Source: Pseudomonas sp. J452 (GTDB lineage: Bacteria; Pseudomonadota; Gammaproteobacteria; Pseudomonadales; Pseudomonadaceae). Taken from it: 64,000 nucleotides of DNA. The stretch lies in assembly GCF_024666525.1 (NCBI RefSeq), contig NZ_CP088294.1, forward strand, positions 4,650,001-4,714,000, read 5' to 3'. The notes under the pieces were generated by a model that was given only the letters and a program-made list of their open reading frames with translations, searched no databases and was not told the DNA's origin. The position numbers and the translations under genes are program-made. Shown piece by piece: positions 31,706 to 57,257 of this stretch. Numbering within the stretch: position 1 is the first letter of the stretch; the number at the start of each line of letters is the position of its first letter.

Positions 31706-31870
31706 TCACCCTTGCCCCAGATATGCATTGCCAAAAATGCTCGCAAAAAGCCGTGACAGCTGCTCGACGCGGCAGGCGCGGACGGGAAAATGGCATGTTC
31801 GGCAAGGACGCCGGCGCCGCGGATGCATAAACTAGCGGCTATCTGCTTACCCTGCTGCCCGAGGTTCTCC

Positions 31871-33341: not shown

Positions 33342-35396
33342 TCACGGAATCCACGACCACAGCTCGACATCGATAAAGCGGAAGATCGCCCGGGTAAAGG
33401 CCTTCCATACCGGCAACTCCTCACTGCCGACCTTGGCGTAGCCGGTCATGCCGGACTTCAGCTCGCCCTTGGGATTCTCGATCACGGTCAGCACCTTGAC
33501 GTACTTGCCGCCGGTCTTCTCGATCACGTTGGCGTCGATCTGCGTGACCTTGCCGTCGAAATAGCGATCGGAATAGGCCAGCGGCTTGACCTTGAGCATC
33601 GCGCCTTCCTGCACGTAGCCGATCTCGGTTTCCGGCACCTCGATCTCGGCAAACACCTGCTCGGACTTCTCGATCACCGCGAAGGTCTCGCCGGGGCCGA
33701 GGTACTTGCCGGTCTTCTGCTTGAGCAGCAGGGTAATCAGCTTGCCGGACATCGGTGCGCGCAGTTGCGAGCGCTCGATCTTCGCCTGGTACATCTCGCG
33801 CTCGCTGCGCCAGCGCTGCACCTGGGCCTCGGCGGCGGCAATCGAGTCTGGCGTGGCGCCGGTCTTGACCAGGGCCAGGTTGGCCTCGGAGACGCGGATC
33901 GCCATCATGTCCACTTCGTACTGGCGCTGCGCCTGCTCGGCCTGCTGCGCGGACACTCCGCCCTTGGCCAGCAGGGTGGCGTGGCGCTTGTGATTGGACA
34001 GGCTGAACTGCGCCTGGGTCCGCGCCATCTGCAAGCTCTGCTCGGCGACGGCCACTTCCTCGGCACGCGGGCGCGCCTTCAGTTCGGCGACCATGGCCTG
34101 TTCTTCGGCAATCCGCGCCTCGGCAATGCGCATCTGGCTTTCATAGTCGCCGGTGGCCAGACGGGCCAGCACCTGGCCGGCCTGGACTTCCTCACCGCCG
34201 TTGAACAGCACTTCAGTGACGATGCCATCGATGTCGGTGGCGACCTGCTGCTGCTCCACCGGCAGGATCACGAAGGAGCCGCCCGGTTCGTAGGGATAGG
34301 GCAGGAACAGACAAATCAGCAGCGACAGCAGCAACATCCGGCGGGTGTAGCGCACCAGCTTGTTAGCCGGCTTGAGGTTGATCTTGTTCTCCACGTCTTC
34401 CGGCAGGCGGCGGCGCTTCCAGCGCTCGTACTGCAGGGCACGCTCGTACATGGCGTTGGCCGAGCTGAACTTGCGGTAGGTCAGCACGCTCAGGTAGCCA
34501 ACCAGCAGCACGCAGACCAGCACCCCGGTGCCATTGAAATTCAGCTTCATCCAGCTGCCAACCATCAGCAGGGCCACCACGAACAGCAGGGTGGAATAGA
34601 GCAGCGAGGCCAGGCCGTAAGCCATCAGCGCGGTGTCGTTGGCCTCGCGGTAGGCATTGCCCTTGATCCGCCCGAACAGCGCCTTGAACGCCTTGCCGCG
34701 CAGTTGCGGCTCGTCCAGCAGCACGGCGATCAGGTGGTAACCACTGCTTTTCGACAGCGGGTTGAGGGTCAACAGCAGGGCCACCGCACTGACCACCGCC
34801 AGCGCCAGGCCGATGGTTGGCAACGAGCCCGTGGAAGAGCGGGTCAGGTACCAGATGAAAGTGCCGAGGCTGAACAGGGTCGCGCGCATCAGCACCGGGC
34901 CGGCATGCAGCCACAGGCGCTCGCGCCGCGTCAGGCCGATCAGGTTGCTGATCTTCGGCATGAAGCGTGGCAGGAAGCCGAGCATCAGCGCCACGGACAG
35001 ACTGTTGACCGTGCCGCGGTACTTCTGCGCGGTCAGGGCCAGGGTCAGGGTACACAGCAGGTTGACGGTGAACAGACTGAACAGCAGTTGGGCGATCGGC
35101 CCCAAGCCGGAGAGCCTGGTGAGCGCATCGCTCTGCACCAGGCTGAAGTTGCTGATGACGATGCCCAGGGCCATCACCAGCAGCAGCGGCAGGACGAAGA
35201 CCATGTACTTCAGCGGCTCGACCCACTCCAGCAGCGTCTTGAGCATGGCGCGCGGATTGAACAGGTGGAACACCGGGATCTGCAGGGTGTCATCCATGCC
35301 GGCGAAGCCGCGCACACCGGCCTGCAGCTTGTCGGCATCGCCCCCCCTTGCCATCATTCGAGGCGCCCGCCCGTGCGGCGGGCGCGGGTGCGGCAA
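33342..35396 (-). CDS. M50-like membrane domain fused to HlyD-type adaptor; C-terminal part of a split protein
   Basis: About 665 in-frame residues follow the G7 run (35341-35347); the open frame extends 5' to 35396 but shows no own start. A membrane region with about eight hydrophobic segments resembles the M50/YydH-type peptidase-like proteins that carry HlyD domains, including NPLSKSSGYHLIAVLLDEPQLR. The zinc HExxH motif is missing: CTLTLALTAQKYRG stands where it should be, and the later family Asp (DGY) is replaced by SGY. The last 310 residues are a HlyD-like membrane-fusion adaptor: a lipoyl half (TDIDGIVTEVLFNGGEEVQAGQVLARL), coiled coil and barrel (SGMTGYAKVG). An internal ATG at 35297 is a possible independent start. 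It is the last gene of the synthase operon and probably handles envelope transport. Confidence 0.75.
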   Translation of the reverse strand: MPHPRPPHGRAPRMMARGGDADKLQAGVRGFAGMDDTLQIPVFHLFNPRAMLKTLLEWVEPLKYMVFVLPLLLVMALGIVISNFSLVQSDALTRLSGLGPIAQLLFSLFTVNLLCTLTLALTAQKYRGTVNSLSVALMLGFLPRFMPKISNLIGLTRRERLWLHAGPVLMRATLFSLGTFIWYLTRSSTGSLPTIGLALAVVSAVALLLTLNPLSKSSGYHLIAVLLDEPQLRGKAFKALFGRIKGNAYREANDTALMAYGLASLLYSTLLFVVALLMVGSWMKLNFNGTGVLVCVLLVGYLSVLTYRKFSSANAMYERALQYERWKRRRLPEDVENKINLKPANKLVRYTRRMLLLSLLICLFLPYPYEPGGSFVILPVEQQQVATDIDGIVTEVLFNGGEEVQAGQVLARLATGDYESQMRIAEARIAEEQAMVAELKARPRAEEVAVAEQSLQMARTQAQFSLSNHKRHATLLAKGGVSAQQAEQAQRQYEVDMMAIRVSEANLALVKTGATPDSIAAAEAQVQRWRSEREMYQAKIERSQLRAPMSGKLITLLLKQKTGKYLGPGETFAVIEKSEQVFAEIEVPETEIGYVQEGAMLKVKPLAYSDRYFDGKVTQIDANVIEKTGGKYVKVLTVIENPKGELKSGMTGYAKVGSEELPVWKAFTRAIFRFIDVELWSWIP

Positions 35397-35856
35397 CCGC
35401 TGCCTTGGCCGCGTGCGAGGCCCCCGGCGCCTGGGTCTTGTCGCGGAACTTGGCGACTTTCTCCTCGAGCAGGCGCTGCAGGTCGGCCTGCAGCCGCTCG
35501 CGGTAGGGCTCGATCAGCGGATGAGAGGCCGCCGCCAGCCCCAGCAGACGCTGGTCGACCAGGTTGACCAGCAGCGCTTGCAGGTCATCGCGGCTGAACG
35601 GCTTGGAGAAGCGCCGCTCGTAGCTGGCCGCCAAGGCGTCGAATTCCTCGTCGACCTGGAGCATCTCGAGAACGAAGAACTGCCGGGTCTCGAACTCCCA
35701 GTGCAGCTCGCTGGCCGGGTCGCGCACCACATACAACGGCTCGTGCTTGCCGTTGCGCAGGTACACCGTAAGGCCCTTGCGCAGCAGCTGCGGCGTGGCG
35801 ATCTTGCGCGCGTCGCCGAGGTCGGATTGTTGCTTGGCCGAAATAGTGCCATTCAT
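35290..35856 (-). CDS. PqqD-like N-terminal part of the split HlyD protein
   Basis: The ATG at 35856 overlaps the TGA of the preceding hydrolase gene (ATGA), so translation is coupled. The first 100 residues resemble a PqqD-type winged-helix peptide chaperone domain (ATPQLLRKGLTVYLRNGKHEPLYVVRDP, FVLEMLQVDEEFDALAASYERRF), followed by a helix and an Ala/Pro linker. After the G7 run the frame goes to RCRQAAGRCARLRRHG and stops at 35290. Removing one G would join it to the M50-like/HlyD frame, giving one protein of about 837 residues. That joined form is the likely ancestral gene. Confidence 0.72.
   Translation of the reverse strand: MNGTISAKQQSDLGDARKIATPQLLRKGLTVYLRNGKHEPLYVVRDPASELHWEFETRQFFVLEMLQVDEEFDALAASYERRFSKPFSRDDLQALLVNLVDQRLLGLAAASHPLIEPYRERLQADLQRLLEEKVAKFRDKTQAPGASHAAKAAVAAPAPAARAGASNDGKGGRCRQAAGRCARLRRHG
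35341..35347 (-). other. Run of seven G at the frameshift site
   Basis: On the coding strand the run reads AAG GGG GGG C in the PqqD frame. Six G would give ...GGDADKLQ... and a continuous protein. A 9-bp stem (GCGCCCGCC/GGCGGGCGC) lies 15 bases 5' of the run in the mRNA (35363-35385). It could be an assembly error, a phase-variable tract or a slippage site; sequence alone cannot decide. Confidence 0.85.
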
Positions 35857-38435
35857 AGCGCAGGGCTTCCTTTTGACCGATCACGGATCCCGGCGCTGGG
35901 CGCGGCGGAGGTCATGGCTTTGCGCGGGGCGAAGAACACTTCGCAGCCGCCGCGCGGGTTGTCGATATAACGGTCGCCACCCAGTGGCCAGACTTTCGGG
36001 CCGAACGGGTTGGCAGCGCCAAGGAACAGGCCGTAGGGCGAGGAAACGATGGTGCGCATGCCGATGTTGTAGGGGTTGCCCATGCCATCGTTGGTCACCG
36101 GCACCCAGTTCTCGCCGTCGTAGCTGCGGTACAGGTCGAAGCCCGACTGGCGATTGAAGATGAACTCCTCGCCGACGCTGTTGACGATATTGAGGAACGG
36201 CGCCGGCCAGCTTTCGCGCCGCGCGTAGCCGAGCAGGCCACTCCAGTCGAAGGTCGACAAGTACAGCCAGCCCTCGTGCTCGGCCATACGCCAGAAGTAG
36301 CCGTTGAAGAAGTTGTCGAAGCCGGGCATATAGCCGGACAGCGGTTCCTTCCAGCCGTCGCTGGTCATCCGCGCGTCGCCGACCAGCAGGTCCCAGCTGT
36401 TGTCCGGGTGGATGCGGATCAGCTCCGGCGCAGCCGGGCCGACCCCGTTCTGCCGGTCGATACCGCCGCCCTGGATCGCACTGCCGACATACAGTGCGCC
36501 CTTGAACGCGTACATGCTCAGCACCGACTGGTTGAGCGGGCCGCGGTCGGCGCCGTCGGCTATCACTCGCTCCCAGTGGTAAGGCTTGCTCTCGCAGGTA
36601 CTGCGCCAGACCTGGAAGCCCTTGAGGTTGAAGGTACCGACGTACAGGTGATCATTGAAGGCGCACATCTCGAAGATGGTCTTGTTGCCATCGTCGCCGA
36701 AGCCGAAGTCGCTCGCTGCCTGCCACTGACCATCCTCCGGCGCCTCGCTCTCATAGACGATGGAGTGCGAGGAGACGTTGGGGTTGCCACCGCGCGAGCC
36801 GGCCGGCGTGGTGTACATACGACCCTTGAAGGCCACCATGGTACGGATGGTGGTCACCGGCAGGCCCATCAGGCCCGGTTCGCAGGTCGGCGTGAAGTTC
36901 AGTCCGTCTTCCGTGCGCAGCAGCAGCGGGCCGGGGCCCTTGGCCGGCGACCAGGTACTGACGAACAGGCCCGGCGGCCGGCCCTTGCTGCCCGGGTATA
37001 CGCACATGCCGCGAAAGCCCAGCTCACGGGGAATCTTCGAACCGTCGCTGCCGATGATGGTCGGCGCCTTGAACACCCGTTTCCATTCGTCCTTGCGCGG
37101 GTTGTAGCGCCAGATCTCGGCGTGCAGGTCGAGGTCGAAGGGGTTGGCCGGACACTCCACCGGCCAGGGATCCATGCTGATCGGCAGGCGCGCCTTCATC
37201 AGCGGGAAGTTGCCGCGGGTGGTGCCGATATACAGGTAATCGTTGAACCAGGCCATGGCATGGGCGTAGGCATTGACCCCGTCGCCGAAGCCGTTGCGGG
37301 CAATCAGCTGGAAATCGTCCTCACTGAGACCGGCTGGCACCCGCACCTTGCTCGGCAGGTTGAACATCGAGCCAGCCTGGACCTTGCGCGCCAGCACCTC
37401 GGCGATGAAGGCATTGAGGTGGTCGAGGGCATCGTCGAAGGCGGGGAATGGCCCCTGCTCCTTGCCCTCGCGGGTGGCATAGAACCACTGCTCCTCACGG
37501 TTGTAGATGCGGTCACTGCGGAAGAATGGCTTGGCGTCATCGTCCTCGGCACGGCCCTCGCGCTTACTGCTGACGCGACGCAGGAAGAACTCGAAAGAGC
37601 GGATCAGCTTCTGCGGCCGTGACGCCGGAAAAAAATGCCCGGCACCACGCACCAGGCGAAAATCCGCCCGCGGCCAGACGCTAAGCAACAGCTCGCCGGT
37701 GGTCACCGCCTGGGAGCGCTCGCCGTAGATGGCCAGCAGCGGGAAATGCAGCTGGTGCAGGCGCTCCACCACCAGACCGTCGTCGCCCATCAATTCATCC
37801 TGGGCAGAGGTGGTTTCCAGCAGTTTCACCCACTGGTCGGCGGTGCGTTTTCCGGAGCTGCCCATCAGCGGGTTGATCAGTTCGCGCAGGGCCTCCGGCA
37901 GCTCGCGCTGGTTCAGCTGCAGGGTCGCCGCCTCCTTGAGCAGGCGGTAACCGAAATAGGGTTCGCGGGTATTCAGCGGTATTCCGTTGTCGTCGAGGAT
38001 GCGCTGGATATGCTCGGCATAGCGCCAGTCGCTGCCCACATTGCGAATGGCGGCGATGTGGGTGTCGGCGATGGTCAGGCTGAGAAAGCGTTGCGGCTGC
38101 TCGCAGGCCAGGTTCAGCGCGATGGTGCCGCCAAAACTGTGGGCGATGAAGTGCGCCCGTTCGATGCCCAGGTGTTCCAGCAGCAGGCGCAGGTCCTCGG
38201 CCTGTTCGGCCGGGGTGTAGCCCGTTGCGCTCATGCTGGAACGGCCGTGGCCGCGCAGGTCATACATGGTCACCCGGTAGTTGCGGGCCAGCGCATGGCC
38301 GACCTGCATGTACCAGAAGGCCAAATTGGCGGCGAGGCCGTGGATCAGCACCACATCCTCGACCTTGCCGCCTTCACGCTCGCATGCCAGCTGCTGGTAG
38401 TGCAGCTTGATGCCATTGACCTCCGCCATCGCCAT
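35853..38435 (-). CDS. Alpha/beta hydrolase fused to a DUF6316-like module and a propeller-like domain
   Basis: The protein has 860 residues. Residues 1-285 are an alpha/beta hydrolase: VLIHGLAANLAFWY (oxyanion HG), MYDLRGHGRSS, nucleophile in AHSFGGT, late His in RGAGHFFPAS. Residues 300-345 match DUF6316 (FFRSDRIYNREEQWFYATREGKEQGPF). Residues 360-850 hold repeated aromatic beta-rich segments (MAWFNDYLYIGTT, CAFNDHLYVGTFNLKG, MYAFKGALYVGSA, HEGWLYLSTFDWSG) spaced like blades of a beta-propeller. No signal peptide is seen. The stop overlaps the next gene by four bases; the upstream gene ends four bases before its start. It may release or modify the synthase product as a thioesterase-like enzyme; that role is inferred. 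Confidence 0.82.
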   Translation of the reverse strand: MAMAEVNGIKLHYQQLACEREGGKVEDVVLIHGLAANLAFWYMQVGHALARNYRVTMYDLRGHGRSSMSATGYTPAEQAEDLRLLLEHLGIERAHFIAHSFGGTIALNLACEQPQRFLSLTIADTHIAAIRNVGSDWRYAEHIQRILDDNGIPLNTREPYFGYRLLKEAATLQLNQRELPEALRELINPLMGSSGKRTADQWVKLLETTSAQDELMGDDGLVVERLHQLHFPLLAIYGERSQAVTTGELLLSVWPRADFRLVRGAGHFFPASRPQKLIRSFEFFLRRVSSKREGRAEDDDAKPFFRSDRIYNREEQWFYATREGKEQGPFPAFDDALDHLNAFIAEVLARKVQAGSMFNLPSKVRVPAGLSEDDFQLIARNGFGDGVNAYAHAMAWFNDYLYIGTTRGNFPLMKARLPISMDPWPVECPANPFDLDLHAEIWRYNPRKDEWKRVFKAPTIIGSDGSKIPRELGFRGMCVYPGSKGRPPGLFVSTWSPAKGPGPLLLRTEDGLNFTPTCEPGLMGLPVTTIRTMVAFKGRMYTTPAGSRGGNPNVSSHSIVYESEAPEDGQWQAASDFGFGDDGNKTIFEMCAFNDHLYVGTFNLKGFQVWRSTCESKPYHWERVIADGADRGPLNQSVLSMYAFKGALYVGSAIQGGGIDRQNGVGPAAPELIRIHPDNSWDLLVGDARMTSDGWKEPLSGYMPGFDNFFNGYFWRMAEHEGWLYLSTFDWSGLLGYARRESWPAPFLNIVNSVGEEFIFNRQSGFDLYRSYDGENWVPVTNDGMGNPYNIGMRTIVSSPYGLFLGAANPFGPKVWPLGGDRYIDNPRGGCEVFFAPRKAMTSAAPSAGIRDRSKGSPAL

Positions 38436-38439
38436 AGCG

Positions 38440-40050
38440 TTATTCCATGTACCCGAGCATCTGCAACTGGGCCATGATCTTTTCCTTCTCGTCGTCGGCC
38501 ATGTCTTCGGCGTTTTCGTCCTTGTTCACCCCGCGGGTCGACTCGCCGATACGGATCGGGTTCTGGTTCAGCCAGGGCTTGATGAACATGTCGGCCGGCA
38601 CCTTGCCCTCGAAGTCGCCGGGCACTTCCAGGCCCTGGCTGTAGAGCAGGGTCGCGCCGACGTCGCAGATGTGCCGACGGTCGATCTTCACACCCTTGCG
38701 GATGCCTGGGCCGCAGGCGATGAAGATGCCATCCGGGTGGTGGGTACCGGCCGGTTCTTCACGCGGCTCTACGATCGGCAGCTTGTTCTTGATCGAGACG
38801 AAGCCGAAGTCGCGCAGCACCAGCAGCAGGTCCGGCGCGTCCATCATCGCCGGGCCGGCGAAGACTTCTTCGCGCAGGTGGATTTCGCTGACGATGCTTT
38901 CGCCTGTAACCGGATCCTTGAGCGCCTTGATGTCGAGGATCAGTTGTTCACGGAACGCCTCGTAGTCTTCCGGCTTGATCCCGGTCTCGCCCGGATTGCG
39001 CGCCACGCGGATATTGATGCCGTTGCTCGACGGCGTGCGGCAGTAGGCGGTGGTCTTGGTCCAGTCGAGGTTGGCGAACATGCTGTCCTCACGACGCTTG
39101 GCGGCCTCGGAGTCCGGATCGAGCACTTCCTTCCAGTGCAGGTAGCCCTTCTCGAACAGCCAGGCATTGATCCGCACCACTTCGGTGGTGGCGGTGAAAC
39201 CGTGGTCGGAGGCCATGAACACCTGCACATCCGGGCCGGCCATGGTCACCAGCTCTTCGATGAAACCATCGAGTTGGCGGAAATAGTCCAGGCACAGGGC
39301 GCGCATGCGCTTGTGGTAGTCGCTGACGCCGTCGTGCTGCAGGGCCGGGTCGAGGAACAGCCAGGCCTGGTGCTGCAGCTTGTCGACGCCGTCGAACATC
39401 ACGGCCATCAGCTCCGGGGCTTCTTCCTTGAGCAGGAACTTGGCGATCTCGAACCACTGCTTTTCGCGCGGCAGGTGGTAACGCACCCAGTTCTCGCGGT
39501 CTTCGTCGGTCAGGTGGTCGACTGCCTGCTTCTCCTGCTCGAAGTCCCAGGCCAGCTCCTTGGGATTGAAGTCCGGCAGCTCTTCCTTGAGGCGATCATA
39601 GAAGTTGGCCGGCACGGTGTTGCGGCGCAGGTGTCGCCACGGGATGAAGCCCGGCACCATGAAACCATTGAGGTCCTTGGGTGGCGGCGCGGTGAATGGC
39701 AGGTTGAGCACCGCGACACGGCGTTCCTGACGGCTGGCGATCGACCAGATGGTTTCCGCCAGGTTGTCGCGCGAATCATAGAGGGTGAAGAACACGTCTT
39801 CGCCACGTTCCTCGGCGCGGATGAAATCCAGCAGGCCGTGGTTGCCCGGGCTGCGCCCGGTCATCAGCGAAACCCAGGCCGGCGGAGTCAGCGGGTTGGG
39901 GGTGGAGCGCAGCTCGCTGCGCGTGCCGCGGGCCATCAGGCCGCCGAGGAACGGCATGACCGCAGGACGCCCGTCCTTCTCTACCGTGAGGTCGTCGAGG
40001 ATGGTGAAGGTGCACCCATCCATCCCGATGAACAATGTACGTGTGGTCAT
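38440..40050 (-). CDS. Alkaline-phosphatase-superfamily enzyme (type I phosphodiesterase-like)
   Basis: The protein has 536 residues. The N-terminal metal site is LFIGMDGCTF (Asp11) and the nucleophile Thr lies in NPLTPPAWVSLMTGRSPGNHG (about Thr55). Further metal ligands appear in FDGVDKLQHQAW and MASDHGF, with HHPDGIFIACGPGI near the C-terminal end. This is the type I phosphodiesterase/nucleotide pyrophosphatase pattern; related enzymes hydrolyse or transfer phosphate or sulfate esters. No signal peptide is seen, so it is cytoplasmic. The start overlaps the ACP stop by four bases, making it part of the operon. The substrate is unknown; a carrier-bound or activated lipid intermediate is a guess. 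Confidence 0.85.
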   Translation of the reverse strand: MTTRTLFIGMDGCTFTILDDLTVEKDGRPAVMPFLGGLMARGTRSELRSTPNPLTPPAWVSLMTGRSPGNHGLLDFIRAEERGEDVFFTLYDSRDNLAETIWSIASRQERRVAVLNLPFTAPPPKDLNGFMVPGFIPWRHLRRNTVPANFYDRLKEELPDFNPKELAWDFEQEKQAVDHLTDEDRENWVRYHLPREKQWFEIAKFLLKEEAPELMAVMFDGVDKLQHQAWLFLDPALQHDGVSDYHKRMRALCLDYFRQLDGFIEELVTMAGPDVQVFMASDHGFTATTEVVRINAWLFEKGYLHWKEVLDPDSEAAKRREDSMFANLDWTKTTAYCRTPSSNGINIRVARNPGETGIKPEDYEAFREQLILDIKALKDPVTGESIVSEIHLREEVFAGPAMMDAPDLLLVLRDFGFVSIKNKLPIVEPREEPAGTHHPDGIFIACGPGIRKGVKIDRRHICDVGATLLYSQGLEVPGDFEGKVPADMFIKPWLNQNPIRIGESTRGVNKDENAEDMADDEKEKIMAQLQMLGYME

Positions 40051-40361
40051 GCCGGCACTCCTGTGAGTTTTGCGTGAACGAAGTCGATCACCTGGCCAAT
40101 GGAAAGATCATCGACGTAACTGCCGTCGTTCATCAGCAGGTCCTGGAAGCCCATTTTCGGGCGGTTGTAGTGCTCTTCGATGGCCACCATCAGCTGAATG
40201 ATGTCGACCGAGGCGAACTCCATGTCGGCAACCAGACGGGTCTGGCTGCTGACAGCCTCATCCAGCTCGATGCCCCAGTCCTGGGTCAGGTCCTCGACGA
40301 TGTGGATCAGGGTCTTCTCGATACTGCTTTTATCCAGACCCATTGCGACAGCTTCAGCCAT
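40047..40361 (-). CDS. Discrete acyl carrier protein
   Basis: The protein has 104 residues (98 if the second in-frame ATG at 40343 is used). The phosphopantetheine Ser is in DMEFASVDIIQLMVAIEEHY, the classic helix-II motif of ACPs. It is acidic overall, as expected. It overlaps the upstream synthase stop by eight bases and the downstream phosphatase start by four. The upstream synthase lacks its own ACP domain, so this free ACP probably serves it in trans. The fused phosphopantetheinyl transferase next door is the obvious activating enzyme. Confidence 0.88.
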   Translation of the reverse strand: MAEAVAMGLDKSSIEKTLIHIVEDLTQDWGIELDEAVSSQTRLVADMEFASVDIIQLMVAIEEHYNRPKMGFQDLLMNDGSYVDDLSIGQVIDFVHAKLTGVPA

Positions 40362-43300
40362 TGGTTACTCCAAATTCCTGATAATCCAACTCGGCCCCGG
40401 CCAGGGCGATCAGCAGATCGCCTTGCACTTCCAGGGCCACACTTATTTGTGCGGACGCCTGCTCGGCAGACCCCGCGACATTCACCGTGGCGAACGTCCA
40501 GTCGTCGCCGAACAGCACCTCGAAACGCTCCGGCGCGCCCTGCAGGCCACAACCCAGGTACTTGGCGGCGGCTTCCTTGGCGCACCAGGTGCGCAGGATC
40601 AGCTCGCCGCGCTGTTCACCCGGTACGCCATCCAACGCCTGCTGCTCGTAAGCGGTAAAGGAGCCGGCCACCAGCTCCGGCCGTTGCAGACGGTCCAGCC
40701 GTTCGGCATCCACACCGACGCGTCCGGCCGGCACCAGCGCCGCCAGGCAGCCGTGACGGTCATGGGTCAGCGACACGCTCGGTGCATCCAGCCACTGACC
40801 GCTCCACCAGCCGTCGACATAGGGCGCGCCGAGCTCGTCGTGCCACACCGAGATATCCGCCGGGCAGAGCAGCTCGCCGGTCTGCTGGTAGAGGTAGTAA
40901 CGCGTCGCTTCCTTCAGGCACAGGCGGCCGTGCAGCCACTCGCGAGCCTGGCGCGTGTGGCGCACGGTTTCCCATTCGGGACGCTCATCCTCGGCGAGGA
41001 TGGCGTGGGCGAGGATGCGCAGGAAGATCGCTGCCGACTGCTTGCAGAAGTCATCCGCCAGGTAGTTGAGCTGCCACAGCAGCACCTCTTCGGCACTGAC
41101 CAGGGTCGCCGCGCCACTCGCCAGCGGCGCGCCGAGCCAACCGTTCATGGGCTCGCGGCGCAGCTGGTAGAAGGCGTTGGGCACCGGGAAGAAGATGTTG
41201 GAGAAACCGCTGGCCCGCAGCAGCAGGCGCCCCTCGTGCAGGCAGTCGAAATCCCACACCCGTGGCGTGCCCAGGCCCTGCTCGGCACCGCCCTGCGGCT
41301 GCTGGCGACCGCGCAGCTGGGCGCCGGCGATGTCCGCCGGCACCTGGCCATGCAGTTCAATGCGGGCGATGTGCGAGGGGAAACTGTTGAAGTCGGTGCC
41401 AACCTGCTGTGCCAGCCAGAAGGCGGCGAGCTGACCGAGGGCATCCAGCAGCACCGGGTTGAGCACCAGGTCGCAGGGCTCGCCGTCCTGGATGAAGCCT
41501 TCCAGGCTGCAGGAAGCCAGCGCCGCGTCGATGCCTTCGCCCGACCAGCCGTGGATGCCGGCGATGCTCTGGAACAACGGGCCATGGAACATGCCGGTGG
41601 TGTACAGCTCGGCATCCGCCCAGCGGTAGGCGTCGGCCGCCGCCAAGGGCGCCAGCGGCGTGCCGGTCAGGGGCGCGGCAATCCGGAACTCGGCGCTCAT
41701 CACCTTGCTGCCGGCGTTGAACAGGCTGGCGCCGTACAGGCGCGCCTGGGCGTCCAGGCACTCGGCCTCGACCTGCAGGGTCAGCTCGCCACGATCCAGC
41801 GCCACCCAGTCGAAGGCACGGACATTCTCGATCAGGTTGATCGCCCGGCTACCGGCCAGCACGGCGCAGGCCTCGGCCATGATCTCCAGGCTGGCCATCA
41901 TCGCCACGCAGGCCAGGCCTTGCAGCTCGGGCTGGTGATAGGAGGACGGACCCGACAGCACATGGTCGGCGAGGAAACGGTCGGTCGACCACAGCGGGCA
42001 TTGCGCACTAAGTTTGTCCGCGCCCAGTTGCTGGATCTCGCCGAGCAGCGGCGTAGCGATCGGCGCCCCCGCCATGGCTACAGGCGCCATAGCGGGCTGA
42101 GCTGCTGCGGGTGGCATGATTTCGCGCAGCAGCTGGGCGATCTCGGCATCGACATGGACGAAAGGCATGGTGTTCTTGATCAGCAGACCGCGCTTGGCTT
42201 CGATCAGCGGCTGCTCGAGGTCGAGCACCCGGCAGTTGCTGCCGCGGAACAGCTTGCCCAGATCGACCGTCTTGCCGTTGACGAACAGCGCGCCGAGCAC
42301 ACTGAACAACTGCTCGATGCCGCTGCGCTTGCGCGCGTTGGAGGCCAGCGCCACGTACTCGCTGCCGCCGAGGATGTCGTTGACGAAACCGGTGAGGTTG
42401 CCCGACGGGCCGACCTCGATGAAGTAGCGCACGCCGTCGCGGTGCATGTTGGCGATGGTTTCGCGAAAACGCACGGTACTCGACCACTGCGCCGCCGCCA
42501 GCTCGCAGACCTGCTCGGCCGCTGCCGGAAACAGGTCGGCGCTGGCGCAGGAATACAGCGGGGTTTTCGGCGTCTGCAGGCCAACCGCCTGGTAGTACTG
42601 GAGGAAGGCCGCGCTGACCGGGGCGAACAGCGGCGTGTGATAGGCACGATCGAATGGCAGCAGGGCGCAGATGCCGCCCTCCTCGCTCAAGGTCTTGAGC
42701 AGGCCGGCAATCGTTTCCTGGCTGCCGAACAGCACCAGCTGGTTCTGGCAATTGTCCATCGCCACCACCACCGCCTCGCCGCTGGCGGCAATGTGCTGCT
42801 CGACCTGCGCGCGGCTCATGGCACCGACGGTGAGCAGCGCGCCGGTGGCGATATCGCCAGCCTCCAGCACGCCACGGTAGACCTTGTTCAGCTCGCGGAT
42901 GAAATCGGCCAACTGCTGGCGGTCGCTGAAAGCCATGGTGCCGGAGGCGGCCAGCGCCGAGGACTCGCCGGTGCTGTGGCCGAGCATCACGTCCGGCTCC
43001 ACGGCCAGGGCACGCAGCAGGCTGAACATGGCCTGGCTGGCGACGAAGATGGCTTCCGAGCCGACATCCATATCAAACAGCCGCGCCTCCAGCTGGCCGC
43101 GCAGCGCATCGTTCAGCTCGCTCTGCGGCGGGAACAGGATGTCGCTGCGCCCCGAGCCGGCCTGTTCGTCGTAGAGGCCCTGCCAGAAATCGAACCACTC
43201 GCGCACTTCGCCGAACTGCTGGGCCAGGTCGCTGAACATGTTCAGGTACTGCGAGCCCTCGCCGGGGAAGATGAAGGCCAGCTTGCCGTCCAGCGGCTGG

Positions 43301-44994: not shown

Positions 44995-44999
44995 GCGGC

Positions 45000-47900
45000 T
45001 CACTCGGTTTCCTTGCGCAGGTGGGTGCCACCGAGGCGATTGAGGCGGGCATCGACGATGCACTCCATCTCCTCGATCAGCAGCAGCAACTTGCCGTCGT
45101 CATCGCTGAAAAACACGTTGGCGCGCACCTGCTGGGCCTCGCCGGGCAGGCACTGGAAGTCCATGTGGAAACGCTCCGGCAACTGCTCGACGTAGCGGAT
45201 CACCCGACCGAACTGCGCCGGCAGCGCCGAGCCGTCGTGGAAGGTGCGCGCCCACAGCAGGGCCATCTGCGGCGCCGCATCGAGCACCGCCGGGTCGACG
45301 ATCCACTGCTGCTGGGCCGGCATGCCGCTCAGCCACTGTTGCGGCGAGCTGGGGCACATCAGCGCCGTTGCGCCCTGGCTGGACAGACCGTTGATGGCGC
45401 GGATCACCTGGAAGCGCGGACCGTGGAACAGCCATTCCTGGTAGGCCTTGGCCACCGGCAGCTGACGCTCACGGTATTCGCCGGGACGATGCAGCGGCGC
45501 TTCCGGCAGTTGCTGGGCCATCTTCACCGCGGCGCGGTAGTGGATGCGCTGGGTCTTGCCGCTGCCCGAGCGGATGGTCAGGCTGGCGTCGAAACCTTCG
45601 CTGCTGGCGTAGGTCGGCGGGTTGATCACCACGGCCAGGGTCTGGGTCGGTTCGTTCAGTTGCACGCCCTTGAGCAGGCGGAACTCGGCCACCTCGGCGA
45701 CCACCCAGTCCGGCCACATGACGCTGGCGGCTTCGGCGACGATTTCCAGGGCCACTGCCGCCGGCAACACCGGAATACCATCGATGCAGTGTTCCTGCAG
45801 ATAGGCGTGGGCGGTGTCGATGGTGAAGGTGAGCACCTCGGTGCCCTTGTCACCATGTTCGATGCGGCCGTGGGTCAGCAGCGGCTGGTTGATACCCCCC
45901 TGTGCCGCGCCAGCTTCGGCCTCGACCAGGCGGCCGATGTCGGCCTCGTGCTGCTCCCAGGGGCCGCCGCCGGCGATCACTTCCACCGCATGCGCGCCGC
46001 GCAGGCGCAGGGCCTCGCTGAACAGCTGGCGACCCTGGGCGGCAGTGACCAGGGCCACGCCCTTGTCGGCAAATTTCTTCTCGGTGTCGGCGGTGACCAT
46101 GCCGGCGCCGAACTTGGTCGCACCCCAGGGGCCCCAGTTCAGCGACACCACGTTGACCTGATCGCCCCACTGGCGTTGCAGCTGGCAGCACAGGCGGTTC
46201 ATCAGTTCGTTGGCGGTGGCGTAGTCCAGTTGGCCGCTGTTGCCATAACGGCCGGCCACCGAGCTGAACACGGCGAAAAATTCCAGCTCGGCCACGTCCA
46301 CATACTTCTGCAGCAGCAGCATGCCGTTGACCTTGGTGCCGACCACGCGCATCCAGCTTTCCGCGCTCTTGTCTTCCAGCAGTTTGTCTTCGATCACCCC
46401 GGCGCCATGCACCACGCCGCTGATCTTGCCATAGCGCTCGCGCAGGCCGATCAACAGGGCCTGCACGGCCGGCTCATGGGTGACATCGACGGCGATGTAC
46501 TCGACCGTGGCACCAGCCTGGCGCAGGTCGGCGACATTGCTGTGCATCTCGCGCAGGGCGACGATAGCCGCCACCTTGCGCTGCACCTCCGCCGGGCTGA
46601 GCCGCAGGCGACCGGCACGCACTTCACCGATGAAGTACTGGCGCAGGGCGTTCTGGCTGTCGAGGCCGGAGGTGGCCGGATCTTCCTCGTGCAACTCGCT
46701 GCGCCCGGTGAGAACCAGCACATTGCCCGGCCGGGCCAGGTCGCGCAGCACCTCGGCGGTGATGCCGCGGGCGCCGCCAGTGGCCAGGACCACGGCATTG
46801 TTCAGCGGCGGCTGCAGATCGCTGGCGGCAATTGCATGGGCCTGGGTGCGGAACAGCGTGCGCTGCCCAGCCGGATAGCCGACTTCCTGGCGCCCGCCGA
46901 CCAGCTGCAGCTCGGCGCTGATGATGGCCAGCTGCTCGGCAGCCGCCAGCGCCGGATCGAGGTCGATGGCGCGGGTACGCAGAGTCGGGCGTTCTTCACG
47001 GATGGACTTGATCAAGCCGCTGCTGCCGCCCTGCAAGCTGAGGCTGGCCTCTGCCGGCGCATCACCGCGGCCGAACAGGCCTCCCAGACCACTGACCGCC
47101 ATCACATGGGCATCGCTGCGCAGCTGCGCGGCCAGGGCATGCAGAATCAGGAACAGCGACTTCTCGTTGACCAGCAGCTCTCGCTGCCAGCTGCCCAGCT
47201 GCGCATCGCGCGGCAAAGCATGGGCGCCCAGCGCCGCCAGGTGGATCACCCCGGCGACCACCTTGTCCGGATTGGCGGCGGTCTCCCGGCACCAGGTCAG
47301 CAGCGCTGCCTCATCGGCCAGCAGGCTCGGTGCCAGCAACGACACCGTGCAGCCGCGCTGTTCCAGCCACTCCTGCAGTCGCAGGGCCAGACCGTGGTTG
47401 TCCGCCGTGATGACGAAGTAACCGGGCTCGAACTGGCGCAGGGCGTTGGACGGAATTTCTTCTGCTTCGGCAATCACGACATGCCGGGGCGAATGGCTGA
47501 CCACGGGGGTGGCAGCTATCGGGTTCGCCCCGGCCAAATCAAAAGGGACTGCCGCCTCGCCGACCTCCAGGCCTTGCAGCAACTTGAGCATGTCAGCCAG
47601 CGTCGCTCGCGTGTTCAGCTCGCTACGCGCCTCGCCCAGGGCACTGCCGTAGGCCGGCGGCAGGGTCTGCAGCAGGGCGCCGACGATTTCCACGCGCTTG
47701 ATCGAGTCGATGCCGAGGTCGGCTTCGAGGTTCTGATCCAGGCCGACCATGTCGCTCGGATAGCCGGTGCGTTCCTCGACGATGGACAGCAGGATGTCCT
47801 TCATCTTGGCGCCTGCCACCTGCGCCGGCGCGGCGGCTGGCGCCGCTGCAACGGGAGCCGGAGCCGGCGCCACCACGACCGGTGCCACAGCAACCGGGGC

Positions 47901-50900
47901 AGGAGCAGCAACCACGGGGGCAGCAACCGGCATCGCCACAAGAGCCGGTGCAGCCGCGACACGCGCCGGAGCCACAGCAGCTGCCGGGCGACGCGCCGGA
48001 GCCGCCGCTGCCGGCATGGCACGCGGCTGGCTGGCCACGGCACCACCGGCCATGAAGGTGTTGAGCACTCGTTCCTGGGTTTCCAGGAACTGGCGCATGG
48101 TGGCGAAATACTCCGCCATCACCGATGACATTTCGTCACCGTTGGGAGCCGTTGTTTCAGACATGACCAGCCTCTCCTTGACTCGGGGTGCAGCCTGCGC
48201 TGCGCGTTGGGGGACGGGAATTGAAAGGGGTTGGGCGACCGGCGCGACCAGGGTGCGCGGCTCGCTGGGTGCTGCAGGCATTACTTCGCCCTGGCGTACG
48301 CCGATCTGCCGCTGCGCGGCGCTGGCGCGACGGGCGCCGCTGCCGTTGAGCAGCCAGGCCTGCTTGGGCAGGCTGGCGTCCTGCCACAGGCCGTCGAGAC
48401 GACCATTGCTGCTGCGCAGGCAATCGCGGCGGGCGAACAGCGCCGTCGGCTGGAAGCTGACACCCAGGCAGAACAACCGGGCCAAGGCGGTCAACAGGCT
48501 GGTGATGCCCGCGCCACGCTCATCCAGGGCGATGGCCTGGTGCGCGCGGCCATCGAGGATGCGCCCGACCAGTCGACTGAGTACGGCCTTGGGCCCAACC
48601 TCGATGAAGACGCGGGCGCCGGCGGCATACATGGCTTCGACCTGGGCGACGAACTCGACCGGCTTGACCAGGTGTTCGGCCATGCTCGCCTTGAGTTGCG
48701 CCGTCTCGCTGCTATGCAGCGCGGCCGTGGTGTTGGAGTACACCGGCATGCTGCCTGGCCGCCAGTTGGCCGCCTCGATGGCCGCGGCGAGCAGCGACTG
48801 CGCCGGGGCGACGAAAGGCGAATGGAAGGCCGCTGCCACCGGGATGGCGCTGGCATTCAGCCCGGCCGCCTGGAAGGCCTGCAGGGCGCTGGCGATACCG
48901 GCCTGGGAGCCAGAAATGATGCTCTGCTCCGGCGCATTGTGGTTGGCCACCAGCACGTCCGGCAGATGGCCGATGCTGGCCTCTACCAGCGCCCGCGGCG
49001 CCTGCACCATGGCCATGCTGCCGAGCTCGCTGCCAGCGCTGGCAGCGGCCTCGACGATGAAGCGACCGCGCGCCTCGGACAGGCTGATCAGGGTGGGCAA
49101 ATCGATGTGCCCGGCGGCGAACAGGGCGACGAACTCGCCATAGCTGTGCCCGGCGGCCATGTCGGCGCTGACGCCCAGTTCCTGCAGCAGACGCCACAGA
49201 CCGGCCTCGACCACGCCGAGGGCCGGCTGGGCGATATCGGTGCTGGTCAGCGCCGCACTGGCAGCCTGGCGCGCCGCCTCGTCATAGCAGCTGCGCGGGT
49301 AGATGAACTGGCTCAGCGGCTTGTCGGCAAAGCGCTCAGTGGAGTCCTGCAATTGCTGGTCGGCGGCGGCCAGGGTCTCGGCCACGGCCGGGAACAGCAC
49401 GGCGATTTCGCGCAGCATGTGGATGTTCTGCGACCCCTGGCCGGGGAACAGCACGGCGACCTGACCGGCCTCGACCAGGCTGTCGCCCAGCTGAATGCTC
49501 GGGTCGATCAACGCCTCACCGGCCAGACGCCGCTGGGCCTTGTCCAGTTTGTCGGCCAACTGGTCCAAGCTGGCGACCACCAGGGCCAGGCTGTGCGTAC
49601 CGCTGCCGAGGTTCGCCGCCAGGTGGCAGGCGATATCGGCCAACGCCACCTTGCCCGGCGCCGCCAGTTGCTGCTGCAGCGCGCTGACCTGAGTCTGCAG
49701 CTGTTCGCGGCTGGCGGCGCGCCACAGCAGCAACTCGGCCGCCCAGGCGTCGCTGACGCTGGGCTGCAGCCAGGGGCGGTATTCGCCCGCGTACTCTTCC
49801 AGCACCGCGTGGAAGTTGGTGCCACCAAAACCGAAGGCACTGACCGCGGCGCGGCGCGGCTGCTCGCCATTGACCAACCAGGGCTGCGCCTCGTCCAGCA
49901 CGCAGAGCGGGCTGTCGGCCGCCTTCAATACCGCGTTCGGCGATTGCACGCCGAGGTGCGGCGGCAGGGTCTTGTGATGCAGGGCCAGGGCCGCCTTGAT
50001 CATCCCGGCCACGCCGGCGGTGGCCTTGGTGTGACCGATCATGGTCTTCACCGAGCCGACCACGGCTTGCGCCGGACGGCTGCCGGCTTCGCGCAACAGC
50101 GAAGTGGTGCTGTCCAGTTCGGCGGTGTCGCCGGCCACGGTGCCGGTGCCGTGGGCCTCGAACAGGCCGACGCTTTCCGGGCCGAAACCGGCCTGCTGGT
50201 AGGCCCGGCGCATGGCGCGCAACTGCCCGGCAGGCAACGGCGCGGTGAGGCCCTTGGCCTTGCCGTCACTGCTGCCGGCCATGCCCTTGATCACCGCGTA
50301 AACGCGGTCGCCGTCGCGCTCGGCATCGCTCAGGCGCTTGAGCGCGAGCATGGCGATGCCTTCGGAAATCACGATGCCGTCGGCCGATTCGTCGAAGGTG
50401 CGGCAACGGCCGCGCGGCGACAGGGCCTGAGTCTTGCTGAAACACAGGTAGCCGAACGGGCCCTGCACGGTGTCCACGCCGCCGGCGATAACCAGATCGC
50501 TACGGCCGGAGAGCAGTTCGTTGATACCCTGGTAAATCGCCGCCAGGGACGAGGCGCAGGCGGCGTCGGTGGCGAAGTTGACCCCGCCGAAGTCCAGGCG
50601 GTTGGCGATACGCCCGGCCATCACGTTAATCAGGATGCCGGCGAAGGTGTCTTCGGTCCATTCCGGCAGGCGCTCGGCGATCGCGCTCGGCAGCTCGCCG
50701 GAAAAACGCGGCAGCTCGGAGCGCAGGCCGTACTGCATGCCGACGTCACCGGCGCCACCGCTGGCGCCGATGATCACCGAGGCCTTCTCGCGGTTGAAGC
50801 CGCGCTGCTCATAGCCGGCGTCGCTCAAGGTCTGGCGGGCGATATCCAGAGCCATCAGCTGCATCGGGTCGACCGACTCGATGGACTTGGGCGGCATGCC

Positions 50901-53189
50901 GTAACGGGTCGGATCGAAGACCATGTCGTCGAGGAAGCCGCCCCAGCGCGAGTAGATCTTGTCCGGAGTGCTGCGGTTCTCGTCGAAGTACAGGCGCCAG
51001 TCCCAGCGATGGGCCGGGATCTCGGTGATCGCGTCGACCTTGTTGAGGATGTTGTGCCAGTACTCACGCGGGGTCTTCGAGCCCGGCAGCACCGAGCCCA
51101 TGCCGATGATGGCGATATCCGCCGGATCGCCGCTCAGCGGCGCCAGCTCATCCTGGGCCTGCACATGCGCGTCGAGCAGGGCCAGCGCCTCGTCGGTGAC
51201 GCTGTGGTGCAGGCTGGCGATATCGGTGACGGCGGCGCGCAGGGTGGCGACCTGGCCGATCATGTACATGCCGTCCGCGACCTGCTCGTCCTCGCTGAAG
51301 ACCTTGAGCTTGGCCTCTTCGCCAATGCGCATGCTGCCCTTGGAAGCCAGGCGCAGGCGGCCGAGGATCAGGTCGTCGAGCTGCTCACGGGCCTCGTCGG
51401 CGGGCACGGCCTGCTGCTTGAGCTCGTTGCGGCGGGCGAAGAACGCGGCGGCGAACGGAGTGTAGGCACAGCGGCTGGCATGTCCGGTGCCGGACTCCAG
51501 GTTGACCGTGCGCGCACAGTCGATGGCCTGCTGCTGGAAGGTCTCGACGATGGCGCCGGAGCCGACGATTTCACGGGTGAACAGGTAGGCACTGCCCATC
51601 AGCATGCCGACCTTGACGCCCAGCGCCAGCAAGGGCGCGGCCATGGTCTGAACCATGGCAGAGGAACGGGCATCGTGGATGCCACCGGCGAACAGCACCT
51701 GGATCTCGGCCGCCGGTACGCCGTTTTTGATCTCGTCGAGCAGGCGATCAATCATGCTGCTCCACAGCACGAAGCTACTCAGCGGGCCGACATGCCCGCC
51801 GCACTCGCGGCCCTCGAAGATGAAGCGCCGCGCCCCTTCCTTGAGGAACATCGGGATCAGGTTGGCCGACGGCACATGCAGGAAGGACGGGATGCCCGAC
51901 TGTTCCAGGCGCACCGCCTGGTCCGGGCGACCGCCGGCGATGATGGCGTAGCTGGGCTGATAGGGCTTGGCGGCGGCAATCTGCTCGTCGAGCAGGCTCT
52001 GCGGGGCGAAGCCGAGCAGGCCAATACCCCAGGGTCGGCCGTCGAGGAGTTGGTGGGTCTTGTTCAGCAATTCATCCAGCGGCTTGCCCTTGAGCAGGGC
52101 CAGGGCCAGCATCGGCAGCGCCCCGCCGCTGGCGACGGCCTCGGCGAATTCGGCCTTGTCCGAGACCCGACTCATCGGCCCCTGCACCAGCGGCAACGGC
52201 AGGCCCAGGGCCTGCGCCAGCGGTGCATCGGCCTGGATCGCCCGGGCTTTCAGAGCAGCCTGCGGGTTGTTCTGCACCGCGTTGTCGATGGCCTGGAGCA
52301 GTTGCGCCAGGCTGCCGTACTGCTTCTGCCAGGCAGCCGCGAACGCCACATCCTGGCCCAGCGGCAGCAGCCCGGCGGCTGGATCGCGCCAGCTGATTTC
52401 GGCCAGCACCCGCGCGCGCAATTCGGCAGGCGTGAGGCTTTCCGCGGCGGCGACAAAGGCCTTGGCCGTGGCGAAACCGGGACGCAGCAGCACCCGGCAG
52501 TAACAGCCGAACTCGCCGTTGCCGGCGGCGACTGTTTCGCTGCCGGACAGGCTGCGCAGATGGGGGAACAGCTCACTGGCGACCGGCGACTCCTGCAGCA
52601 GCAGGACCTGACTGTCCAGCACTACGCCGGCACATCCGGCAACGGCGGCGGCAGCAGCGGTATGCGGGGTGATGCCACCGCGCAGGTAGAGCGGCAGGTC
52701 GCTGTGTTGACGCCAGTGCTGGGCGAGGATGAAGCAGCTGCTTTCACCAACGAAACCGGCGGCTTCGTGGCCCTTGAGGATCAGGCCGTCGACGGCGGCG
52801 AGCAGACTTGGCTCAAGCGCCTCGCTGCTCGACAACTCGAGCAGCACGCGCACACCACGGGCACGCAGGGTTGGCAGGCTATCGCGCCACAGGCTGAACT
52901 GCTCGCGACCGACCACCAGCAGGCACAACCCCTTGCCCGCCTGGCTCAGCAGGGCATCGTGCAGCGCGCGATCAAAATCGCCCAGACGCACGCCAAAACC
53001 GTGCTGCCCGGCATGCTGGGCGAGCACAGCCAACTGCTCGACGCCCTGCGCCGCACAGCTCGCGAGCTCCAGATCGAGGACGCCAAGCCCCCCAGCCCGG
53101 GAGGCAGCGATTGCCAGAGCTGGATGCGCCAAACCGCTGGGAGAAAACACCAACGTCTGAAAGCCAGAAGCGTTTCGAGAGCCATTCAT
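45000..53189 (-). CDS. Type I synthase: two NMO/PfaD-like barrels then KS-AT-ACP-KR-DH
   Basis: The protein has 2,729 residues. Residues 1-290 form a weak nitronate-monooxygenase-like barrel (LILKGHEAAGFVGES). Residues 300-690 form a second, clear PfaD/NMO-like enoyl-reductase barrel (PLVQGPMSRVSD, FEGRECGGHVGPLSS, FAGGIHDARS). KS runs about 690-1135 with Cys878 (DAACASS), His1013 (EAHGTGT) and His1053 (GHTKATAG). AT runs about 1245-1560 with Ser1349 (GHSYGE). An Ala/Pro linker follows, then one ACP at about 1795-1870 with Ser1829 in LGIDSIKRVEI, the Pfa-type ACP motif. KR runs about 2130-2360 with GGARGI and Tyr2323 (LDYATAN). The terminal DH has His2467. The single ACP contrasts with the tandem ACPs of true PUFA synthases. 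Confidence 0.9.
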   Translation of the reverse strand: MNGSRNASGFQTLVFSPSGLAHPALAIAASRAGGLGVLDLELASCAAQGVEQLAVLAQHAGQHGFGVRLGDFDRALHDALLSQAGKGLCLLVVGREQFSLWRDSLPTLRARGVRVLLELSSSEALEPSLLAAVDGLILKGHEAAGFVGESSCFILAQHWRQHSDLPLYLRGGITPHTAAAAAVAGCAGVVLDSQVLLLQESPVASELFPHLRSLSGSETVAAGNGEFGCYCRVLLRPGFATAKAFVAAAESLTPAELRARVLAEISWRDPAAGLLPLGQDVAFAAAWQKQYGSLAQLLQAIDNAVQNNPQAALKARAIQADAPLAQALGLPLPLVQGPMSRVSDKAEFAEAVASGGALPMLALALLKGKPLDELLNKTHQLLDGRPWGIGLLGFAPQSLLDEQIAAAKPYQPSYAIIAGGRPDQAVRLEQSGIPSFLHVPSANLIPMFLKEGARRFIFEGRECGGHVGPLSSFVLWSSMIDRLLDEIKNGVPAAEIQVLFAGGIHDARSSAMVQTMAAPLLALGVKVGMLMGSAYLFTREIVGSGAIVETFQQQAIDCARTVNLESGTGHASRCAYTPFAAAFFARRNELKQQAVPADEAREQLDDLILGRLRLASKGSMRIGEEAKLKVFSEDEQVADGMYMIGQVATLRAAVTDIASLHHSVTDEALALLDAHVQAQDELAPLSGDPADIAIIGMGSVLPGSKTPREYWHNILNKVDAITEIPAHRWDWRLYFDENRSTPDKIYSRWGGFLDDMVFDPTRYGMPPKSIESVDPMQLMALDIARQTLSDAGYEQRGFNREKASVIIGASGGAGDVGMQYGLRSELPRFSGELPSAIAERLPEWTEDTFAGILINVMAGRIANRLDFGGVNFATDAACASSLAAIYQGINELLSGRSDLVIAGGVDTVQGPFGYLCFSKTQALSPRGRCRTFDESADGIVISEGIAMLALKRLSDAERDGDRVYAVIKGMAGSSDGKAKGLTAPLPAGQLRAMRRAYQQAGFGPESVGLFEAHGTGTVAGDTAELDSTTSLLREAGSRPAQAVVGSVKTMIGHTKATAGVAGMIKAALALHHKTLPPHLGVQSPNAVLKAADSPLCVLDEAQPWLVNGEQPRRAAVSAFGFGGTNFHAVLEEYAGEYRPWLQPSVSDAWAAELLLWRAASREQLQTQVSALQQQLAAPGKVALADIACHLAANLGSGTHSLALVVASLDQLADKLDKAQRRLAGEALIDPSIQLGDSLVEAGQVAVLFPGQGSQNIHMLREIAVLFPAVAETLAAADQQLQDSTERFADKPLSQFIYPRSCYDEAARQAASAALTSTDIAQPALGVVEAGLWRLLQELGVSADMAAGHSYGEFVALFAAGHIDLPTLISLSEARGRFIVEAAASAGSELGSMAMVQAPRALVEASIGHLPDVLVANHNAPEQSIISGSQAGIASALQAFQAAGLNASAIPVAAAFHSPFVAPAQSLLAAAIEAANWRPGSMPVYSNTTAALHSSETAQLKASMAEHLVKPVEFVAQVEAMYAAGARVFIEVGPKAVLSRLVGRILDGRAHQAIALDERGAGITSLLTALARLFCLGVSFQPTALFARRDCLRSSNGRLDGLWQDASLPKQAWLLNGSGARRASAAQRQIGVRQGEVMPAAPSEPRTLVAPVAQPLSIPVPQRAAQAAPRVKERLVMSETTAPNGDEMSSVMAEYFATMRQFLETQERVLNTFMAGGAVASQPRAMPAAAAPARRPAAAVAPARVAAAPALVAMPVAAPVVAAPAPVAVAPVVVAPAPAPVAAAPAAAPAQVAGAKMKDILLSIVEERTGYPSDMVGLDQNLEADLGIDSIKRVEIVGALLQTLPPAYGSALGEARSELNTRATLADMLKLLQGLEVGEAAVPFDLAGANPIAATPVVSHSPRHVVIAEAEEIPSNALRQFEPGYFVITADNHGLALRLQEWLEQRGCTVSLLAPSLLADEAALLTWCRETAANPDKVVAGVIHLAALGAHALPRDAQLGSWQRELLVNEKSLFLILHALAAQLRSDAHVMAVSGLGGLFGRGDAPAEASLSLQGGSSGLIKSIREERPTLRTRAIDLDPALAAAEQLAIISAELQLVGGRQEVGYPAGQRTLFRTQAHAIAASDLQPPLNNAVVLATGGARGITAEVLRDLARPGNVLVLTGRSELHEEDPATSGLDSQNALRQYFIGEVRAGRLRLSPAEVQRKVAAIVALREMHSNVADLRQAGATVEYIAVDVTHEPAVQALLIGLRERYGKISGVVHGAGVIEDKLLEDKSAESWMRVVGTKVNGMLLLQKYVDVAELEFFAVFSSVAGRYGNSGQLDYATANELMNRLCCQLQRQWGDQVNVVSLNWGPWGATKFGAGMVTADTEKKFADKGVALVTAAQGRQLFSEALRLRGAHAVEVIAGGGPWEQHEADIGRLVEAEAGAAQGGINQPLLTHGRIEHGDKGTEVLTFTIDTAHAYLQEHCIDGIPVLPAAVALEIVAEAASVMWPDWVVAEVAEFRLLKGVQLNEPTQTLAVVINPPTYASSEGFDASLTIRSGSGKTQRIHYRAAVKMAQQLPEAPLHRPGEYRERQLPVAKAYQEWLFHGPRFQVIRAINGLSSQGATALMCPSSPQQWLSGMPAQQQWIVDPAVLDAAPQMALLWARTFHDGSALPAQFGRVIRYVEQLPERFHMDFQCLPGEAQQVRANVFFSDDDGKLLLLIEEMECIVDARLNRLGGTHLRKETE

Positions 53190-55788: not shown

Positions 55789-55802
55789 CTGAGAAGCCCA
55801 GC

Positions 55803-56195: not shown

Positions 56196-56221
56196 ACCGA
56201 CATTGACCAAGGAGCTGGCAC

Positions 56222-57128: not shown

Positions 57129-57257
57129 GCAGCGCCAGACAAAGACAACCATGCCCGTTATAGTCCGTCGTGGCGAAGGCCTTGCACCGGCCATCGCGGA
57201 CTTGCAACGCACGGGCGCCAGCAGCCGCAGTTATCCGTTATGCACGAGAATGCCACT

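Follow-up and report, generated by a model that had tools for sequence, protein, structure and literature searches.

In Pseudomonas sp. J452, we consider it reasonably probable that a Type-O-like gene cluster makes a sulfated, probably exported, polyketide-type lipid. The window, the whole stretch of 64,000 nucleotides analysed here, holds this cluster at positions 33342-60061 as two divergent gene sets, A to F on the minus strand and G to CysNC on the plus strand:

33342..35856, minus strand: F, N-terminal domain followed by an M50-like membrane domain that lacks HExxH and by an HlyD adaptor; two frames here
35853..38435, minus strand: E, alpha/beta hydrolase-DUF6316-beta-propeller fusion, 860 aa
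38440..40050, minus strand: D, NPP-type phosphodiesterase of the AP superfamily, 536 aa (PF01663, 127 bits)
40047..40361, minus strand: C, discrete acyl-carrier-like protein, 104 aa (weak ACP matches)
40354..45003, minus strand: B, KS-AT-DH-PPTase (proposed GTG start at 45003; longest ORF 40354-45063)
45000..53189, minus strand: A, two FabK/PfaD-like barrels-KS-AT-ACP-KR-DH, 2729 aa (Pfam/NCBIfam)
53190..54043, no strand: intergenic region between the divergent A and G
54044..54880, plus strand: G, sulfatase-like member of the AP superfamily whose nucleophile motif, TAPSH, has Thr (PF00884, 50.6 bits)
54880..55788, plus strand: H, PAPS-dependent sulfotransferase (PF13469, 101 bits against a cut-off of 27; both PAPS motifs)
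55803..56195, plus strand: I, conserved protein, about 130 aa long, that matches no family (start estimated from alignment with relatives)
56222..57128, plus strand: J, PHB-depolymerase-like esterase (PF10503) in two frames, 56222-56758 and 56697-57128
57240..58160, plus strand: CysD-like sulfate adenylyltransferase small subunit (NF009214, 542.8 bits against a cut-off of 413)
58160..60061, plus strand: CysNC, sulfate adenylyltransferase large subunit plus APS kinase, second copy (PRK05506, 1054.8 bits against a cut-off of 715)

The cluster extends beyond the Pfa-like operon

Domains, catalytic motifs, synteny and co-occurrence were observed directly in the sequences compared. A sequence-only reading of this DNA had described genes A to F as a six-gene, Pfa-like operon for one product, perhaps an envelope lipid. 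The operon exists with five of its genes intact, the sixth, F, lying in two frames here, and the class assignment was borne out by protein A, which as a whole scored 1100 bits with TIGR02813 (cut-off 1010). The borders were drawn too narrowly, since the sulfation set at 54044-60061 adjoins the operon in six other cluster-bearing Pseudomonas genomes. Overall, the operon and its class were read correctly, the cluster is larger than claimed and has counterparts elsewhere, and the sulfation set, its most informative portion, lies outside the earlier borders.

The gene order cysNC-cysD-J-I-H-G / A was retained in all six of those genomes. Genes B to F continue in four of them (L105, L107, L110 and L111), and for the other two they do so in named loci on contigs of equal length, L026 and L027. 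Beyond cysNC, the six genomes carry HerA, which was found in 15 of the 16 genomes tested. On the other side, a ferredoxin-reductase-like gene next to F (31790-33136, plus strand) was present in 3/3 cluster genomes and in 0/13 others at E<=1e-100; it is possibly part of the same acquisition as the cluster. A tRNA-linked island was unsupported, as the window contains no tRNA. Elsewhere in the genome, a second KS-rich region lies about 95 kb beyond CysNC (C1:4805593-4814252), and a CrtC/lipocalin-like protein (20209-23737, minus strand) beside a MacB/FtsX permease looks ordinary.

Related loci share a two-protein core

Named genomes were searched with 14 aligned B proteins, which gave 93 confirmed loci, and the best 80 of these 93 were analysed. 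Their hosts include Pseudomonas, Neptuniibacter, Desulfobulbaceae, Nitrospira, Nitrosomonas, Rubrivivax/Ideonella, Brocadia, Scalindua and Myxococcota, as well as many Roseobacters, Bosea/Ancylobacter, Fischerella/Westiellopsis, Synechococcus, an Acidobacteriota MAG, an Actinomycetota MAG and others. Within the genus, a full-length B ortholog was found in 7 of 398 sampled genomes.

Gene content was compared in the 58 long loci (at least 22 kb) among the best 80 of 93, with flanks ending 10 kb from B. C was found in 40, D in 43, the hydrolase in 42, the propeller in 46, F in 26, G in 20 and a full-length sulfotransferase in 27. C and D occurred together in 35 of these loci, C, D, hydrolase and propeller in 27, and the same four plus F in 13. 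The sequence-only reading had named conserved synteny of only some of the six genes as evidence against it, and outside Pseudomonas this was in part the case. Because gene content differs among the 58 loci, we regard A and B as the core and the remaining genes as a varying but recurrent set.

The core itself can be split: in L062 and L065-L068 (Fischerella, Westiellopsis, Pelatocladus), A is divided into proteins of about 1870-2070 aa and about 820-880 aa, the smaller being the KR-DH part in L066 and L068. A deep-branching A+B pair on a plasmid of Streptomyces sp. NBC_00984 (L154) is accompanied by an ACP, a hydrolase and a glycosyltransferase.

A sulfotransferase and PAPS genes accompany the synthase

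H qualifies as a PAPS-dependent sulfotransferase: it exceeded the PF13469 cut-off and carries the motifs PRSYTS and RHPxxxxxS, which we take to be the 5'-PSB and 3'-PB motifs. Its sole named match was a weak one of 16.3 bits to NoeE, the Nod-factor sulfotransferase. The neighbouring G has homologues in which the TAPSH pattern was present at 19 of 22 loci.

CysD and CysNC both scored above their NCBIfam cut-offs, and the pair probably supplies PAPS for the cluster. A mere housekeeping role for the pair was ruled out because the same genome encodes a further CysNC, full-length and about 50% identical, at C1:373573-375462. All seven cluster-bearing genomes have a close copy of CysNC beside the cluster (86-97% identity in the six others) and each has an additional copy of about 50% identity. 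By comparison, the full-length CysNC of 13/13 picked genomes without the cluster was only of the kind about 50% identical, four of these genomes having an extra short match to APS kinase only.

A profile search of the best 80 of the 93 loci detected H-family proteins in 35 of 80, locus-end fragments counted. Full-length H was present as 38 copies in 27 of the 80, all 27 being among the 58 long loci; Pseudomonas, Fischerella, Nitrospira, Desulfobulbaceae and Roseobacters are among their hosts. The 5'-PSB pattern was found in 25 and the 3'-PB pattern in 33 of the 38 copies. Some of the misses are conservative variants (e.g. RSYSS) and others are degenerate-looking second copies in Roseobacter-type loci. 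L051, L052, L063, L075 and L102 each have a second sulfotransferase-like protein with a degenerate-looking PAPS loop alongside an intact one.

PAPS genes are found less often. Within 10-kb flanks, 1 of the best 80 of 93 loci has CysD, and 7 have CysNC or an APS-kinase half. Bosea L061 combines H with CysD and a 646-aa CysNC. In Westiellopsis, Pelatocladus and Fischerella (L062, L065 and L067), H occurs with a protein of about 200 aa that matches the CysNC profile over the C-terminal half, the kinase; L066 has this kinase-half protein without an H match and L068 has H alone.

These data bear on a different reading, according to which the product of the A-F operon is a secondary lipid lacking sulfate and the G-J/CysD-CysNC neighbour sulfates something else, e.g. 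a surface glycan. The sulfation set is transcribed separately and divergently, and the weak match of H to NoeE would suit this reading as well. Moreover, at 25 of the 58 long loci among the best 80 of 93, including the Rubrivivax loci, two of them in Rubrivivax gelatinosus, and those of Ideonella and Scalindua, no H-family match lay in reach of the synthase (six Pseudomonas loci in which H is cut by the locus end are excluded from the 25), so that sulfation is either not universal or encoded elsewhere there. However, proteins of the H family turn up repeatedly next to the synthase in several phyla, and the gene order varies. The seven cluster genomes contain 29 PF13469 matches in about 33 Mb, hence about 0.02 would be expected per 24-kb locus with these seven genomes only as background; any PF13469 match was found in 5 of the 13 cluster-free genomes. 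We consider an unsulfated product unlikely and favor a sulfated lipid.

It is also conceivable that H activates a beta-hydroxyl for hydrolase-assisted decarboxylation, which would give a terminal alkene and not a sulfate ester. Such sulfotransferase-assisted decarboxylation is carried out by CurM and cyanobacterial Ols, where the sulfotransferase domain is embedded, whereas H is a discrete protein. The sulfotransferase and alpha/beta hydrolases do share the locus here, and the synthase is iterative and partly reducing. Yet in 12 long loci among the best 80 of 93 a sulfotransferase occurs where the E hydrolase is not present at full length, with no match to it at all in 10 of these, many loci have E without a sulfotransferase, and L045 and L059 have three sulfotransferases each. 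Other hydrolases, e.g. J, could replace E. Since the sulfotransferase and E are not coupled, sulfate-activated decarboxylation becomes less likely, and we regard it as quite improbable.

Accessory genes with possible roles in tailoring and export

The conserved motifs of the accessory genes were examined in their homologues. The [FLYM]xS[VIL]D pattern of C was present in 47 of 51, TPP[AS]W and SDHG of D in 50 and 53 of 53, respectively, and GxSxG of the E hydrolase in 46 of 51. The hydrolase and propeller of E occur together in 46 loci among the best 80 of 93, as separate open frames in 40 and fused in 6. They lie on one strand less than 600 bases apart in 30 of these 46 loci, which links their functions. 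They are fused in the window and in six other Pseudomonas loci; in the two closest named relatives, L028 and L030, they are separate frames about one codon apart.

The HExxH zinc motif was absent from F in all 28 homologues inspected, which rules out an active protease, and the membrane half of F is probably a scaffold. The sequence-only reading had named a PqqD domain in F; at its N-terminus, neither the frame in the window nor two relatives gave a PqqD match at E<=5, and a divergent domain is possible. The F protein of a relative matched DevB weakly (42.5 bits against a cut-off of 129). J begins with a signal peptide, as read by eye, and an OEP (TolC-like) gene adjoins the cluster in Neptuniibacter L034, the OEP family being present in 4 loci. 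The HlyD adaptor, the signal-peptide esterase and the TolC-like neighbor in Neptuniibacter would together favor export.

F is a single frame in relatives and two frames in this assembly, and J is likewise unbroken in relatives. With F and J broken, the strain may lack export, and the cluster could be decaying in this strain, with no exported product. Against decay, the frames of A-E, G, H, CysD and CysNC are uninterrupted, and both breaks fall within homopolymer runs, where errors of sequencing or assembly typically arise, which suggests such an error as their cause. Decay has in our view a slim chance.

The synthase pair resembles Type O

Protein A contains the catalytic residues KS C878/H1013/H1053, AT S1349, ACP S1829 and KR Y2323. 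In B, numbered on the 1569-aa ORF, KS C229/H364/H404, AT S697, DH H1034/D1207 and PPTase D1452/K1496 are invariant in 14 aligned proteins, the window's included; because the KS triad is invariant, the KS of B is not a chain-length factor, unlike PfaC. A has the KS, ACP and KR, at least one of each, by which secondary-lipid synthases are defined (PMC3098273, available text). The multiple tandem ACPs usual in these synthases were absent, Pfam detecting a single PP-binding stretch in A; the same text describes tandem ACPs in most types and accepts single-ACP types.

A KS tree was built from 93 rows, comprising 92 KS hand-chosen from 205 domains and the strain's own FabF. The window's A fell within a clade of 34 rows (support 100/95) and its B within a clade of 33 rows (100/99). 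The two clades, which span several phyla, group together as sisters (67 rows, 98/93). Canonical PfaA, identified by a KS-CLF protein next to it, formed a separate clade of 17 rows (100/98) with the KS of Fischerella L137 and L139, which we take to be HglE-like. The long branches were those of FabF and the chain-length factors. A second, quick tree omitted four long rows and added Gloeobacter violaceus, Gloeobacter kilaueensis and the Scalindua japonica B; it recovered the same groups with SH-aLRT values of 94 (A), 100 (B) and 97 (PfaA/HglE-like) and placed both Gloeobacter proteins inside the B clade.

Type O has been listed for Dinoroseobacter shibae, Gloeobacter violaceus and Parvularcula bermudensis with its product uncharacterised (Shulse & Allen 2011, PMC3098273). 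The Gloeobacter violaceus ortholog of B aligns with the window's B at 40% identity along almost the full length and has the same architecture, and the family has a comparable spread across Alphaproteobacteria and cyanobacteria. B also shares both PPTase motifs, VSLTH (P1b', hShxH) and LGAP (P1a, x(G/D)xP), given in the available text of that paper for the group that holds Type O; since several types share them, they are not specific to Type O. Host, architecture and PPTase motif make it likely that the pair belongs to Type O. In KS trees, which the sequence-only reading had proposed, neither KS groups with the PUFA or heterocyst-glycolipid clades, and the B clade includes a KS from Gloeobacter violaceus, a Type O host. 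The system is only partly unusual, since the A+B pair is widespread and resembles the published type (PMC3098273, available text).

It is very unlikely that the system is a variant PUFA synthase serving membrane phospholipids, for although A exceeds the TIGR02813 cut-off and has a FabK/PfaD-like barrel, one ACP domain was detected, the KS of B is active with no KS-CLF pair, and both KS lie outside the PfaA clade.

Comparison with known systems

The pair shares with the PUFA synthases (pfaABCDE, Types A/B) an iterative type I KS-AT-ACP-KR, a PfaD-like ER and a PPTase in the system; it differs in the ER fused to A, in DH on both proteins and in its KS clade. Types A and B themselves were rejected, as neither a PfaC-type KS-CLF with two DH nor 4-6 ACPs are present. 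The heterocyst glycolipid cluster (hgl, Type F) likewise joins a Pfa-like synthase to an HlyD-type adaptor, DevB being the exporter adaptor for the heterocyst envelope lipid, whereas here we found a sulfotransferase and PAPS genes and no glycosyltransferase among the genes examined; a heterocyst-glycolipid synthase was ruled out by KS lying outside the HglE-like clade. Enediyne PKSEs resemble A in the order KS-AT-ACP-KR-DH and include a PPTase, but here the PPTase is on the second protein and no enediyne accessory genes were seen among the genes examined. A PKSE was excluded, its domains not being in one protein here and the only PKSE KS used (L150) falling outside both clades.

In the mycobacterial sulfolipid-1 pathway, an iterative PKS, a PAPS sulfotransferase and an exporter yield a sulfated lipid. 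The present cluster would operate in a similar way, although synthase family and organism differ and no trehalose or acyltransferase genes were seen among the genes examined.

The Ottowia thiooxydans cluster is similar in that its PfaD and PfaA form a fusion and its fused PfaBC lacks the KS-CLF heterodimer, according to the available text of a 2026 hybrid-lipid survey (PMC13291983), but it is joined to NRPS/PKS genes, of which none were seen here among the genes examined. Neither the available text of that survey nor that of Calteau et al. 2014 (PMC4247773) mentions a sulfation set, although both describe related synthases. The Type O paper (PMC3098273) describes the synthase genes alone; in its available main text the phosphodiesterase and hydrolase are absent, and passages containing 'sulf' concern sulfate or sulfur reduction. 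A literature search, mostly of non-subscription papers, returned no report of a sulfotransferase-bearing Pfa-like cluster, and the product was named nowhere in it.

Proposed pathway and significance

From the gene content we infer how the chain may be made, sulfated and exported, and what structure and what roles for C to G this would imply. A and B, activated by the PPTase of B, would assemble a long chain from malonyl units in iterative rounds with their KS, AT, KR, DH and ER domains. The chain would pass to the free ACP C, the putative carrier for late steps, and be released or transferred by hydrolase E. D and G may tailor a phosphorylated intermediate or headgroup, and H, drawing on PAPS made by the CysD-CysNC pair of the cluster itself, would sulfate a hydroxyl. 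F, with its dead M50-like domain and its HlyD part, may help the product across the envelope together with an outer-membrane channel, and J could trim it outside the cytoplasm.

The recurrent sulfation set and the cluster-linked PAPS pathway lead to a specific product prediction, sulfate esters. We suggest, more tentatively, that bacteria of several phyla (Pseudomonas, Roseobacters, Nitrospira, Desulfobulbaceae, Fischerella) may place on their surfaces or in their secretions sulfated polyketide-type lipids made by one old two-protein synthase, a class unrecognised in the literature found, for which PAPS supply was apparently recruited more than once. The orphan Type O family, listed in 2011 without a product (PMC3098273, available text), could thereby become a known class of surface or secreted lipids.
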